The notes under the pieces are model-generated. The model ran no database searches and was not told where the DNA came from. It saw only the letters and a program-made list of their open reading frames with translations. A DNA stretch of 40,378 bases from Planctomycetota bacterium (GTDB lineage: Bacteria; Planctomycetota; Phycisphaerae; Sedimentisphaerales; Anaerohalosphaeraceae): NCBI GenBank assembly GCA_019456225.1, contig VRUI01000045.1, positions 1 through 40,378 of the forward strand, in the 5' to 3' direction. How positions within the stretch are numbered: the stretch's first letter is position 1; each line of letters opens with the position of its first letter. Made by a program: the position numbers and the translations under genes. This document shows positions 30,502 through 36,492 of the stretch, piece by piece.

Positions 30502-31587
30502 CTAATCGACGAGCTTCTGAGCTACAAGGTCGCCAACTTCGCTGGTCGAATAACCCATTTTGCCGGCTGCCAGCGATTTGAGCTTTTCGCCGGTAACCCA
30601 TTTCACAGCGTCTTCGATTTCCTTTGCCGCCTGCTCTTCGCCGAGCGTATCGAACATCATACCCATTGCACAAACCGCCGCAAGCGGATTAATCACGCCC
30701 ATGCCCGTATACTTCGGAGCGCTTCCGCCGATCGGCTCGAACATGCTCACGCCTTCCGGGTTGATGTTACCGCCAGCCGCGATACCCATGCCGCCCTGCG
30801 TAATAGCGCCGAGGTCGGTGATGATATCGCCGAACATGTTACCGGTAACAAGCACGTCAAACCACTCGGGACTCTTAACCATCCACATACACGTCGCGTC
30901 TACGTGGTAGTAATCACGACGAACATCGGCATAATCTTTTTCGCCCATCTCATGGAACGCCCTGTCCCACAAATCGTAAATGTATGTAAGAACGTTAGTC
31001 TTGCCGACCAGGCCGAGGGTATTTTCTTCGCCGACGCCGCGAGCTTTTTTGCCATGCTTGCGGGCATACTCGAAAGCGTACTTCAAACAGCGGTCAACCT
31101 GAAAGCGGTTGTAAACTGCTGACTGCACGGCGACTTCGTTGGGTGTACCTTTTAGGGTGAATCCGCCCGTGCCGGTATAAGCGTCGCCGGTATTCTCACG
31201 GACAACGACGTAATCGATGTCTGCGGGTTTTTTATCTTTGAGCGGACACTCAACACCCGGGAAGAGTTTAACCGGACGAAGGTTGATATACTGGTCAAGC
31301 TCAAAACGAGCCTTGAGCAGAATACCCTTTTCCAGAATACCCGGAGCAACATCAGGGTGACCGATAGCACCAAGCAAAATCGAATCGAACTGGCGAAGAT
31401 CCTCAACACCGCTATCGGGCAGAGTCTCGCCGGTACGCATATAGCGTTCCCCGCCGAAATCGAACTCGGTCTTTTCAATCTTAAAACCAAACTTATCGGC
31501 AGCGGCATCCATAACCTTAACTGCCTCAACAGTAACCTCAGGGCCGGTTCCGTCACCACCCATAACAGCAATCTTATACGTCGACAT
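30502..31587 (-). CDS. leuB: 3-isopropylmalate dehydrogenase
   Basis: LeuB oxidises and decarboxylates 3-isopropylmalate with NAD+ in leucine synthesis. The 361-aa beta-decarboxylating dehydrogenase has the N-terminal VMGGDGTGPEV, the substrate Arg region ELDQYINLRPVKLF, VVRENTGDAYTG, and the metal/NAD segments GNMFGDIITDLGA and EPIGGSAPKYTG. AAAGGAAG precedes the ATG. It is the last gene of the leu operon, 91 nt after leuD. The gap holds two dispersed-repeat motifs, and the operon terminator follows. It lacks the Arg-rich substrate pattern of isocitrate dehydrogenase, and the leuA-leuC-leuD context settles the assignment. Confidence 0.95.
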   Translation of the reverse strand: MSTYKIAVMGGDGTGPEVTVEAVKVMDAAADKFGFKIEKTEFDFGGERYMRTGETLPDSGVEDLRQFDSILLGAIGHPDVAPGILEKGILLKARFELDQYINLRPVKLFPGVECPLKDKKPADIDYVVVRENTGDAYTGTGGFTLKGTPNEVAVQSAVYNRFQVDRCLKYAFEYARKHGKKARGVGEENTLGLVGKTNVLTYIYDLWDRAFHEMGEKDYADVRRDYYHVDATCMWMVKSPEWFDVLVTGNMFGDIITDLGAITQGGMGIAAGGNINPEGVSMFEPIGGSAPKYTGMGVINPLAAVCAMGMMFDTLGEEQAAKEIEDAVKWVTGEKLKSLAAGKMGYSTSEVGDLVAQKLVD

Positions 31588-31678: not shown

Positions 31679-32158
31679 CTATTTTTTGCTTATATGCTTC
31701 AAAAGCCCGCCATCTTCAATAATTTCAACTGCAAAATCTGGAAGCGGATTAAATTCAATCACTGTACCCTGCGTCTTATTGTTAATTACACCGGCTTTGT
31801 AATCGATCTCGATATCGTCACCGTCATTGATCTTTTCCGGAGCCCCCGGTAGTTCTACAACATAGAACCCGCAGTTAATACAGTTACGATAAAAAATCCG
31901 GGCAAAAGTCTGAGCAATAATAGCCCCAACCTTAGCACCCTGCAAGGCCCAAACCGCATGCTCACGACTCGACCCACAGCCAAAGTCATTACCGGCAACG
32001 ATTATATCACCCGCGCCGCATTTATCAACAAACTCACCATCCAGATCTTCCATAACATGAGAGGCAAGCTCAGCCACATCGTCAGTATTCAAATAACGAG
32101 CAGGGATAATCTCATCAGTGTTAATATGATCACGTTTATAAACATGTGCTTTTGACAT
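31679..32158 (-). CDS. leuD: 3-isopropylmalate dehydratase small subunit
   Basis: LeuD is the swivel subunit that completes the LeuC aconitase-type active site. The 159-aa length fits the short (archaeal/thermophile-type) LeuD class that pairs with a 420-aa LeuC. Motifs are the N-terminal RDHINTDEIIPARYL, the substrate loop GNDFGCGSSREHAVWAL and FARIFYRNCINCGF. Its ATG is only 2 nt after the stop of the preceding small membrane protein, and its ribosome site lies inside that gene, so the two are translationally coupled. Confidence 0.96.
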   Translation of the reverse strand: MSKAHVYKRDHINTDEIIPARYLNTDDVAELASHVMEDLDGEFVDKCGAGDIIVAGNDFGCGSSREHAVWALQGAKVGAIIAQTFARIFYRNCINCGFYVVELPGAPEKINDGDDIEIDYKAGVINNKTQGTVIEFNPLPDFAVEIIEDGGLLKHISKK

Positions 32159-32803: not shown

Positions 32804-34066
32804 TTAAAGATAATTCCTCGGGTCTGCGAGTTTTCCTTCTATTGCACTTGCCGCTGCTGTTGCTGCGCTTGCGAGGAATACTCCGCTCTTTGGTGACCCC
32901 ATGCGGCCTACGAAATTTCTGTTTGTTGAGCTTACGCATTTTTCGCCCGCTGCTAGGATTCCCATGAAACCGCCGAGGCATGCTCCGCATGTTGGTGCAC
33001 TGAATACGCAGCCTGCGTCGTAAAAAATTTCTGCAAGACCTTCGTCAATGCATGCTTTCCAGATGTCCGGGGTCGCGGGAACTACGATAGTACGAATAGC
33101 AACCTTCTTACCCTTCATGATCTCAGCGGCTATACGCATATCTTCGATGCGGCCGTTGGTGCAGCTTCCGATATACGACTGATCCATCGCCTCGCCTGCG
33201 CAAACGCTGATCTTGACGCCATTACTAGGGAGGGACGGTTTTGCGATCATAGGCTCAAGCGCGGAGCAATCGATCTCGATGGTCTCAACGTAGTTTGCAT
33301 CCGCATCAGACTCAAAAACAACATAATCCTTTTTATCCTTAAGATGAGCGTCGAGATATTCTTTAGTCACTTCATCAAACGCAATGATACCATTCTTACC
33401 GCCGGCCTCTATAGCCATGTTGGTAATAGTCATCCGGGCTTCCATAGACATTTCTCTAAGAGCAGGCCCTACAAACTCCATCGCCCGATACAAAGCACCG
33501 TCTGTCTTAACGATCCGAATCGCCTCAAGAATAACATCCTTACTATACACACCCTTGTTAAGCGAACCATTAAGCACGAACTTCATGGACTCTGGAACCT
33601 TAAACCAAAGCTGTCCCGTAGCGATAGCCGCCGCAAGATCGGTCGAACCAATCCCAGTACTGAAAGCGGCAAACGCACCGTACGTACAAGTATGCGAATC
33701 ACCGCCAACAATAACCTCGCCCGGACGAATATGCCCCTGCTCAGGAAGCAGCGCGTGACAAACACCCGCCTTGCCGACCGGGTAATAATGCTTGATCCCT
33801 TTTTCCCTGGCCCACGTATCAAGCCGCTTATGAAGCTCTGCACTCTTAATATCCTTGGCAGGCTGAAAGTGGTCCGGCGTCACAACGATCTTTTCGGTAT
33901 CAAAAACCTTATCGATCCCATTGGCCTTCAGCATAGAGATAGCCGGAGGAGTCGTAACATCGTGACACATAACAATATCAATATTAGCATTCACTAAATC
34001 CCCGGCCTTAACACTATCTTGGCCCGTAGCCTTAGCAAATATCTTTTCCGTAATAGTCATACCCAT
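32804..34066 (-). CDS. leuC: 3-isopropylmalate dehydratase large subunit
   Basis: LeuC isomerises 2- to 3-isopropylmalate with a [4Fe-4S] cluster. The 420-aa form is the shorter HacA/archaeal-type class. Visible signatures are [28 protein letters not shown], the cluster Cys in [17 protein letters not shown] and the paired Cys in [13 protein letters not shown], then [30 protein letters not shown] (split over two motifs). It lies between small membrane protein A (34-nt gap) and the 15-codon frame of paralogue B (18-nt gap). The ribosome site (GGGTAA) is modest. Its partner leuD lies two genes downstream instead of adjacent as usual. Confidence 0.95.
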
Positions 34067-34378: not shown

Positions 34379-35953
34379 TTACAATTCTAAGGTAATCTCT
34401 TCATTGCCCAGCATCTCGGCTGAGACCATTCTGTTTATCGCATCGACGTATGCCTTTGCGCTGGCCTCGATGATGTCCGTCGAGACTCCGCGGCCGAGAA
34501 ACGCTTTTCCGTCGGCGTTGCTTATTCTTACTGTCGCTTCGCCGAGAGCTTCTTTGCCTTCGGTTACTGCGCGTATCGAATATTTCTCGATCTTGGGATC
34601 AAGCCCTGTCGCTTCGCGAATCGCCTGGTACGCTGCGTCAACCGGTCCGTCACCGTCGGTTGCTTTCTGGATAGTTCCGTCTTTGGTTTTTATCTTAACG
34701 CTCGCCGTCGGAACAATTCCCGTCCCGCAGGAAACATGCAAATACTCAAGCTCGTAAACATGCTCGACTTCGCGAACCTGGTCGCTGATGATCGCGATAA
34801 GATCGTCGTCGAAAACTTCCTTTTTCTTATCAGCGACAACAAGGAAACGCTGGTAAATCTCTTCAAGCTCTTCCTTACTAAGCGTATAACCAAGCTCTTC
34901 AAGCCGATGCTTAACACCATGCCTGCCCGTCCGTGCGGTAAGAACAACCTTACTCTTGGGCGAACCGACATCTTCCGGCTTCATGATCTCGTATGTCTCG
35001 CGCTTCTTAAGAAATCCGTCAACATGGATACCGGAACTGTGCGCAAAAGCATTCGACCCGACGATAGCCTTATTGGCCGCAACTTCAAACCCAAGCATCT
35101 CGGCAACCATCTTGCTGGTGCGATAAAAATGCTTTGTATTTATATCCGTCACAACATCAAAGAAATCCTTACGCGTGCGGATCGCCATAACCACTTCTTC
35201 CATCGCCGCGTTACCTGCACGTTCGCCGACACCGTTGATCGTACACTCAACCTGCCGCGCCCCATTAAGAACTCCGGCAAGCGAATTAGCAACAGCCATC
35301 CCAAGATCGTCATGACAGTGAACACTAATAATAGCCTGGTCGATGTTGGGAACTTTTTCGCCGATACTCTTAATAAGGTTTCCATACTCTGCCGGTATCG
35401 CATACCCCGTCGTATCGGGAATATTCAAAACGGTAGCACCGGCGTCGATGACCGCTTCGAGCATCTCATAAAGGTACTCCGGATCTGCCCTGCCGGAATC
35501 TTCACAGTAAAACTCAACCGAATCGGTAAAGCTGCGAGCCAGCTTTACTGCTTCGACAGCCATCCTGATCGCATTGACCTTTTTCTTGCCAAGCGTCAAC
35601 CCATACTTCGCGTCGCTGAACTTGCCGGCGATATGAATATCCGAAACTCCAAGCCCGGTATGTATCCGGCTTTTCTTCGCCTTTGCGATCGCCTTGCCGC
35701 ACGCCTCAATATCAGCGGCGACCGCTCGGGAAAGCGCGCAGATGGTCACCCCTTCGATCTCCCGGCTAAGCAGTTCAACCGCCTCAAAATCTTTGGGCGA
35801 AGAAACCGGAAACCCGGCCTCGATGATATCGACGCCAAGTCGTGATAACTGGCGGGCGATCTCTAATTTTTCACGAACGCCAAGCCGGCTGCCTGCCGCT
35901 TGCTCACCGTCGCGAAGGGTCGTATCGAAAATCTGTATTTTATCTGCTGACAT
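34379..35953 (-). CDS. leuA: 2-isopropylmalate synthase
   Basis: LeuA condenses acetyl-CoA with 2-ketoisovalerate, the first committed step to leucine. The 524-aa product has the catalytic HMGL-like barrel (FDTTLRDGEQAAG at the start, the metal site HCHDDLGMAVANSLAG, and GVGERAGNAAMEEVVMAI), a linker, and the C-terminal leucine-binding regulatory domain (about 395-515). Full length implies normal feedback inhibition by leucine. The ATG at 35953 has GGAG 6 nt upstream, and a TTG 12 nt earlier is part of that ribosome site. It is the first structural gene of the leu operon and follows a Leu-rich leader peptide. Confidence 0.96.
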   Translation of the reverse strand: MSADKIQIFDTTLRDGEQAAGSRLGVREKLEIARQLSRLGVDIIEAGFPVSSPKDFEAVELLSREIEGVTICALSRAVAADIEACGKAIAKAKKSRIHTGLGVSDIHIAGKFSDAKYGLTLGKKKVNAIRMAVEAVKLARSFTDSVEFYCEDSGRADPEYLYEMLEAVIDAGATVLNIPDTTGYAIPAEYGNLIKSIGEKVPNIDQAIISVHCHDDLGMAVANSLAGVLNGARQVECTINGVGERAGNAAMEEVVMAIRTRKDFFDVVTDINTKHFYRTSKMVAEMLGFEVAANKAIVGSNAFAHSSGIHVDGFLKKRETYEIMKPEDVGSPKSKVVLTARTGRHGVKHRLEELGYTLSKEELEEIYQRFLVVADKKKEVFDDDLIAIISDQVREVEHVYELEYLHVSCGTGIVPTASVKIKTKDGTIQKATDGDGPVDAAYQAIREATGLDPKIEKYSIRAVTEGKEALGEATVRISNADGKAFLGRGVSTDIIEASAKAYVDAINRMVSAEMLGNEEITLEL

Positions 35954-36143
35954 TTTTTTCTCCAAGTCTTAATTGCCGCCTATTATGCAGCAATACACGT
36001 AAAATTTCCATCATTTAAATGGTAAAGAAAAACTGAAAGTGGGAGGGGAAAGTTTGAGCGCCTAAAGGCGCAGCAAAACCAGGCCCGGTAAAAGGAGGTC
36101 AGAAAGCCTGATTGTAATGGAAAAATCACTCATAACACCACCA
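35954..36143 (-). promoter_or_regulatory. leuA leader region with attenuator-like features
   Basis: The predicted mRNA leader of about 185 nt encodes the Leu-rich peptide (36062-36133). It contains a GCGCC-TTTA-GGCGC hairpin overlapping that peptide's stop codon, a TCAG/CTGA hairpin inside the Leu codons, and a GACCTCC segment within the peptide codons able to pair with the GGAG ribosome site of leuA. A hairpin with a clean U-run was not found, so the output may be control of translation rather than termination. Confidence 0.5.
36062..36133 (-). CDS. Leucine-rich leader peptide of the leu operon
   Basis: The 23-codon frame begins MSDFSITIRLSDLLLP and ends VLLRL before TAG. Eight of 23 residues are Leu, with three in a row and then two in a row, alongside two Ile and one Val. 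It lies between the leu promoter and leuA on the same strand. The ATG is only about 5 nt after the predicted transcription start, so it would be translated as a nearly leaderless message. Leu-rich leaders that sense charged tRNA-Leu by ribosome stalling are known for leu operons in other bacteria. The assignment here rests on composition and position. Confidence 0.65.
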   Translation of the reverse strand: MSDFSITIRLSDLLLPGLVLLRL

Positions 36144-36171
36144 ATTATAGCAACAAACAAGCAGATATCAA
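36144..36171 (-). promoter_or_regulatory. Promoter of the leu operon
   Basis: On the minus strand TTGATA, 16 nt, perfect TATAAT. The predicted start is near 36138, directly before the Leu-rich peptide. Confidence 0.75.
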
Positions 36172-36276
36172 GAAAACTTTTAAAAAACATAAAGATTTTC
36201 AAAACAAAGGTACCGGGTACGAATATCATAAATTAAGCGGTCTAAAAGGATCGCCTATACCAGACTAAAAGAGGCG

Positions 36277-36492
36277 TCAACTCCCTATCCTTTCGGAATT
36301 AGCCTCTAACCATCTTAATAACCGTTCGGCATCGTCGCCCTTGACTTCCAGGTACGATGTCGGAACCCCGATCCCGCCGCAAGACACCTCATTTTGAAAC
36401 ATCACGTAAACTTTATCACGCCTCTTGGCCTTTATGTAGGTAATCCGGTCGGTATTGATATATTTTCCATCGCCAACATTCAATAAACTCAT
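36277..36492 (-). CDS. Small hypothetical protein (71 aa)
   Basis: The 71-aa product (MSLLNVGDGKYINTDRITYI...) has no membrane segment. The pattern Y-I-N-x-D-x-I-x-Y-I with following beta strands resembles the DNA-binding LytTR fold in outline, but it is too short for a firm call. The C-terminus is an amphipathic helix (DDAERLLRWLEANSE). GGAG lies 5 nt before the ATG. It precedes the leu promoter on the same strand, 105 nt away, and is divergent from the YdcF-like gene. It may be a small regulator, but nothing in the sequence proves this. Confidence 0.65.
   Translation of the reverse strand: MSLLNVGDGKYINTDRITYIKAKRRDKVYVMFQNEVSCGGIGVPTSYLEVKGDDAERLLRWLEANSERIGS

Follow-up and report, generated by a model that had tools for sequence, protein, structure and literature searches.

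A nearly leaderless, leucine-rich leader peptide conserved before leuA in one planctomycete order, and its possible role as an attenuator without an intrinsic terminator

Why does a short reading frame packed with leucine codons stand directly in front of leuA in a planctomycete, and how might it act on the genes that follow? We addressed this question in a stretch of 40,378 nucleotides from a member of the Anaerohalosphaeraceae (Planctomycetota, order Sedimentisphaerales; contig VRUI01000045.1, positions 1 to 40,378), hereafter called the window. Its leucine genes lie on the minus strand in the order leuA-leuC-leuD-leuB, with the leucine-rich leader frame directly 5′ of leuACDB. The leuA gene (34382-35953) encodes a 2-isopropylmalate synthase with a LeuA_dimer domain (738 bits to NF002086), and a Shine-Dalgarno motif, GGAG, can be read in front of it at 35960-35963 (minus strand). 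Next on this strand come leuC (32804-34066; 3-isopropylmalate dehydratase large subunit), leuD (31679-32158; the small subunit of this enzyme) and leuB (30502-31587; 3-isopropylmalate dehydrogenase).

The leader is preceded by a promoter, P1 (36144-36171, minus strand), composed of the -35 box TTGATA (36171-36166), a spacer of 16 nt and the -10 box TATAAT (36149-36144). P1 matches the consensus at 11 of 12 bases and carries TG before the -10 box. The leader ATG (36133-36131) lies ten bases past the -10 box, which leaves a predicted 5′ UTR of only a few nucleotides. The frame itself (36062-36133, minus strand; MSDFSITIRLSDLLLPGLVLLRL), identified as an open reading frame and by its conservation in relatives, comprises 23 codons and ends with the stop codon TAG at 36064-36062. 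Eight of the 23 codons specify leucine, among them CTC CTT TTA and TTG CTG, and at least eight leucines occur in only two of the 250 ATG frames of 15-30 codons in the whole window. The frame stays open upstream to an ATG at 36229 (55 aa); we favor the start at 36133 because of the position of P1 and the conserved start positions in relatives. The leader also contains the motif GACCTCC (36100-36094), and a small hairpin, H2 (GCGCC-TTTA-GGCGC, 36071-36058), overlaps the stop codon. The promoter just before the frame, the leucine codons, the hairpin and GACCTCC had all been pointed out in an initial annotation of this DNA, and each was found as described. Farther upstream, 5′ of P1 on the same strand, a 71-aa frame (36277-36492, minus strand) gave no match in a Pfam search.

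To read the leader in a wider context, leuA relatives were taken from 59 genomes of the family and order, plus GTDB contigs, and the upstream DNA was inspected. This yielded 51 leaders of the window's type (type A), in 48 of which the start codon was covered. In every one of these 48, an in-frame ATG lies 30-75 nt 5′ of the last leucine codon. The type A peptides are alike at little but their end, ...GLxLLLR(R/P/L/Q)*, and their leucines are concentrated in the last eight codons. Counting back from the hairpin, leucine occupies 100, 73, 88, 58, 35, 48, 44 and 23% of the codons and then at most 6%, the first value being 100% by construction because the search pattern required CTG or TTG there; the two other reading frames contain 10 and 3% leucine. 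An ATG frame with at least four leucines in its last nine codons was found 5′ of leuA in 39 of the 51 relatives; the antisense strand gave 0 of 51, and only 0.8% of shuffled sequences contained one. The nearly leaderless start is also conserved, since 42 of 48 relatives have a -10 box 4-11 nt 5′ of the leader ATG. Additionally, 36 further, out-of-sample leaders have a -10-like box 4-13 nt 5′ of the ATG, although some of these boxes are weak. This spacing implies that the transcript would start at, or within a few nucleotides of, the leader ATG.

Because a plain hairpin pattern gave about one extra match per genome, similar to its reversed control, we turned to a covariance model of 50 positions (the leucine run, H2 and the start of the tract described below), built from 46 relatives with the window's own sequence left out. 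In the window's genome the leader was the sole real match (E 1.3e-6; next match, E 8.6). Across the order, the model matched 107 of 148 genomes and 58 of the 66 high-quality ones, nearly always once each; the genomes without a match include a family with a different hairpin (f5) and several incomplete assemblies. We fetched 40 further matches, of which 37 lie just 5′ of leuA, and in 36 of them an ATG frame closes with the leucine run; the remaining three are weak secondary matches (E ~0.005-0.02). Three of the 37 repeat loci already seen and were excluded from the independent set used below for hairpin H1 and the tract. The leader in the window is beyond chance, and the features on which the initial annotation had drawn, namely the leucine codons, the short start and the hairpin, are all conserved in relatives. 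From this conservation we consider it very probable that the leader senses leucine.

In a leuA tree, all type A and type B loci fall in one clade (100/100), with few losses of the leader. The leader is lost or decayed, with leuA retained, at L008/L034, L010, L014 and L016. One family contains two leuA lineages, L028/L029/L024 and L001/L005-L007, which are ~62-65% and 76-81% identical to the leuA of the window and both carry the same leader. The leuA genes of some Acidobacteriota and of one Desulfobacteraceae MAG (L042-L045) are nested in the planctomycete leuA clade and have no type A leader, a placement that looks as it might after horizontal transfer. One of them, L045, was automatically labelled C in the tree and was not counted, as its terminator may belong to the upstream gene.

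The leucine codons of the leader are set between two local hairpins. H2 (36058-36071, minus strand) has a core that is invariant in the aligned relatives and follows the pattern (C/T)TGCGCC-N2-8-GGCGC(A) in type A, over or just before the stop codon; owing to this invariance, no covariation occurs within type A. In family f5 (L129-L133, L059 and L074), whose leader type forms one clade (100/100) beside type A in the leuA tree, H2 is replaced by CTAGCCC-NNNN-GGGCTAG, directly after the leucine codons and ending at the stop codon. This hairpin is a block replacement of H2 in which the pairing is preserved. At two loci (L047 and L048), a palindromic repeat of ~40 nt sits inside the H2 loop 5′ of leuA, with the H2 arms kept and the leader frame open. 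The other hairpin, H1 (36077-36113, minus strand; 5′ arm 36113-36104, 3′ arm 36086-36077), was placed by minimum free energy folding, and it precedes and overlaps the leucine run. In the window it has an unusually long loop, and a strict short-loop search gave it no score. In relatives, its 3′ end lies ~10 nt before the last leucine codon and its arms vary by genus (CAGCA/TGCTG, GGCCG/CGGCC, AAGGC/GCCTT, ATCGAC/GTCGAT and ACCGAC/GTCGGT). Because the register of H1 shifts between genera in the alignment, it was tested by shuffles and not by RNAalifold-type covariation. H1 has a mean energy of -5.4 kcal/mol in relatives. Dinucleotide shuffles give -1.0 (sd 0.28) at this place; shuffling among synonymous codons gives -2.5 (sd 0.34), and none of 100 synonymous sets came near the observed value. 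In 33 independent leaders, H1 reached -6.0 against -3.2 (sd 0.44) for synonymous shuffles, with 0 of 200 sets as low.

How could such a leader control leuA? Between the leader and leuA of the window we found no intrinsic terminator, that is, no GC-rich hairpin with a U tract, and among the 51 relatives there is no conserved one, a few single loci having a hairpin with a T run. The earlier sense that a terminator is absent is thus borne out in both. Mutually exclusive antiterminator pairing was not enriched in the window's leader type. Pairing of the leucine run, the H2 5′ arm and the Shine-Dalgarno region with other downstream RNA remained at chance values, and pairing of the H2 3′ arm with downstream RNA was weak (mean z -0.38; 12% with p<0.05, at few loci only). 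Covariance models from Rfam, the Leu leader included, gave no match. An antiterminator formed by an H2 arm and a GCGC in the spacer of the downstream promoter P2 was considered and rejected; it looks good in L134, L137 and L118 and is found neither in the window nor overall.

What follows H2 instead is a C-rich, nearly G-free, unstructured tract (36018-36057, minus strand), recognized by its composition against background, which we regard as a candidate Rho loading site. C-rich, G-poor and unstructured RNA is what Rho loads on. In relatives, the 40 nt 3′ of H2 contain 26% C and 6% G, with G down to 1% at 10-20 nt past H2, and the folds predict this tract to be unpaired. At least 8 C and at most 2 G in 40 nt were found in 55% of leaders and in 0.6% of same-locus windows, an enrichment of ~90-fold, and in 48% of the independent leader set. 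YC dinucleotides, however, are only mildly enriched (12.0 vs 8.1, ~1 sd). As neither a terminator nor an alternative pairing partner was found, the foremost candidate for the switch is the tract, and the window's genome encodes a rho gene (651.7 bits; cut-off 509.45). Between the leader and leuA lies a second promoter, P2 (TGGAAA-17-CATAAT; 35982-36010, minus strand), whose -10 box and 17-nt spacing recur in most relatives. Its -35 box, in the window and in relatives, often coincides with a palindromic TTTCCAGTGGAAA, suggesting a putative protein-binding site. A reading of the P2 element as a sigma-54 promoter was rejected by eye, as the spacing does not fit.

We therefore put forward, as a proposal whose chances we judge evenly balanced, that the leader is a ribosome-mediated, leucine-sensing transcription attenuator of leuACDB that operates without an intrinsic terminator; that its output is of the Rho type is a separate point, on which our confidence is equally divided. 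Translation of the peptide, control by leucine and termination by Rho are all three what we infer from sequence. P1 would start an almost leaderless RNA, onto which a ribosome could load once the 5′ end emerges and read the peptide of 20-27 codons, the last third of which is rich in leucine. When leucyl-tRNA is plentiful, the ribosome would reach the stop codon and depart, H1 and H2 would fold and the tract behind the stop codon would lie bare. Rho could then load on this G-free, C-rich RNA and end transcription before leuA. Under a shortage of leucyl-tRNA, the ribosome would halt on the leucine codons, melting H1 (and H2 too, if it stands on the last codons) and shielding the 5′ part of the Rho loading region, and transcription would therefore proceed into leuA. 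P2, located 3′ of the tract, would supply a base level independent of the leader. The likely sign would be that of tnaC, in which a standing ribosome bars Rho and a departed one admits it. As we found no conserved alternative pairing that would couple the position of the ribosome to the tract, simple masking would have to account for how a stall leads to readthrough. The weak point is that most of the tract would stay accessible with a ribosome on the first leucine codons; in addition, stalling might raise Rho action, counter to the model.

Several other explanations deserve consideration. H2 is the best conserved structure of the leader, and it might itself either terminate transcription despite lacking a U tract or act as a pause hairpin, in which case the mechanism would be intrinsic or based on pausing and not on Rho. 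Some bacteria are reported to use terminators that lack U tracts, and the spacing of ~11 nt between the end of H1 and H2 might suit a pause hairpin. However, the U tract is absent, and the regulation would have the wrong sign: with leucine abundant, the ribosome would reach the stop codon and open H2, and a stall at the first leucine codons would let H2 form. We consider this explanation unlikely. Alternatively, P2 could be the main leuA promoter, and the peptide and tract could act through mRNA stability or the traffic between P1 and P2. P2 is indeed conserved and, where the leader has been lost, it is retained (L008/L034, by eye, and L010), but such a role leaves the leucine codons, H1 and H2 unexplained, and we regard it as quite improbable.

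The initial annotation had hinted at a translational switch, in which GACCTCC in the peptide codons pairs with the ribosome site of leuA. The GGAG before leuA fits such a scheme, in which the region of the leucine run would hide the ribosome site, and the actinobacterial LEU element (Seliverstov et al. 2005, PMC1262725), which among described terminator-less leuA leaders comes nearest, is drawn with a base stem of leucine codons and the Shine-Dalgarno sequence. Across 49 leaders, however, pairing between the leucine run and the Shine-Dalgarno region of leuA was at the level of shuffled sequences (mean z -0.06; p<0.05 in 2%; window, z +0.17). Because it is no better than chance, the idea fails in this form. 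The variant in which the C-rich tract hides the ribosome site was likewise rejected (mean z +0.27, chance level). Moreover, relatives differ in the gap between H2 and leuA, which ranges from about 100 to 370 nt. Translational control of this kind is thus very unlikely. What stands of the earlier reading as leu attenuation is the leucine-rich, nearly leaderless leader with a stop-codon hairpin before leuA; it lacked H1, the G-free tract, P2 and the classical attenuators of other planctomycetes discussed below. Finally, that the frame merely encodes a small expressed hydrophobic protein and no regulator is extremely improbable: its C-terminus is hydrophobic, but the N-terminal half is unconserved in sequence and variable in length, the C-terminal codons are tied to hairpins at the nucleotide level, and the frame always precedes leuA.

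Returning to the Rho-type attenuator, we compared it with leaders elsewhere in the phylum. In other planctomycete families, a leucine-rich frame 5′ of leuA is followed by a terminator 17-42 nt past the stop codon, with energies of -17 to -26 kcal/mol, at 13 loci, two of them near-copies (L164, L165, L169, L173, L175, L179, L183, L186, L149, L095, L111, L178 and L189). In 9 of these 13, the 5′ arm of the terminator pairs with the last part of the frame (p<0.05 vs shuffles). These loci look like classical attenuators, mostly with an antiterminator at the stop codon. They share with the window's order the phylum and a leucine-rich frame before leuA, whereas the leaders of that order have neither terminator nor antiterminator. 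Since other families use terminators after a Leu leader, the sensor would be widespread in the phylum and the output different in the window's order.

The classical leu, trp and ilv attenuators (E. coli leuL; the Rfam Leu leader) likewise have a short peptide rich in the end product before the cognate operon, and hairpins around the regulatory codons. In contrast, the window's leader is nearly leaderless, has a hairpin on its stop codon and P2 behind it, lacks any intrinsic terminator or antiterminator that we could find, and matches no Rfam model. With the usual hairpin that stops transcription missing, it may be seen as a variant of the classic bacterial switch. The actinobacterial LEU element also combines leucine codons before leuA with the absence of a classical terminator; here, pairing of the leucine run with the ribosome site is at chance, two local hairpins and a G-free tract are present, and the phylum is different. 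The Rho-controlling leaders tnaC of E. coli and mgtL of Salmonella share unstructured, C-rich and G-poor RNA by the leader stop codon and the lack of an intrinsic terminator. Unlike the tnaC/mgtL arrest peptide, the signal proposed here is the supply of leucyl-tRNA at leucine codons, and the action of Rho is presumed. Leaderless polycysteine sORFs of mycobacteria, reportedly described by Canestrari and colleagues in 2020 (cited in PMC13236596), resemble the leader in being nearly leaderless short frames that are rich in the end-product amino acid and precede biosynthetic genes; the planctomycete frame differs in its leucine in place of cysteine, its flanking hairpins and tract, and its phylum. 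The initial annotation knew of no prior description for planctomycetes, and our full-text literature search found no planctomycete Leu leader either; a 2010 survey by Lopatovskaya et al., which lies outside that search, could contain cases. Leader genes in planctomycetes have been counted, with no leuA named (PMC4833913).

We tentatively propose, with somewhat less than even confidence, that one planctomycete order uses an undescribed design of leucine attenuator, with a nearly leaderless sensor, leucine codons between two local hairpins, one of them on the stop codon, a G-free tract for Rho loading that takes the place of the terminator, and a bypass promoter. In comparison with related families, the sensor would have been kept and the mode of termination exchanged. 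Most known cases of amino acid attenuation come from Proteobacteria, Firmicutes and Actinobacteria, and they are usually found through their terminators. A terminator-less, nearly leaderless version kept across an order would escape searches of this kind, and it would offer a defined and testable case of a stalled ribosome gating termination without an intrinsic terminator. As both designs occur in one phylum, the exchange of one mode for the other may be open to study. The proposed mechanism would also imply that transcription and translation are coupled at this operon in planctomycetes, a debated point owing to their cell plan.
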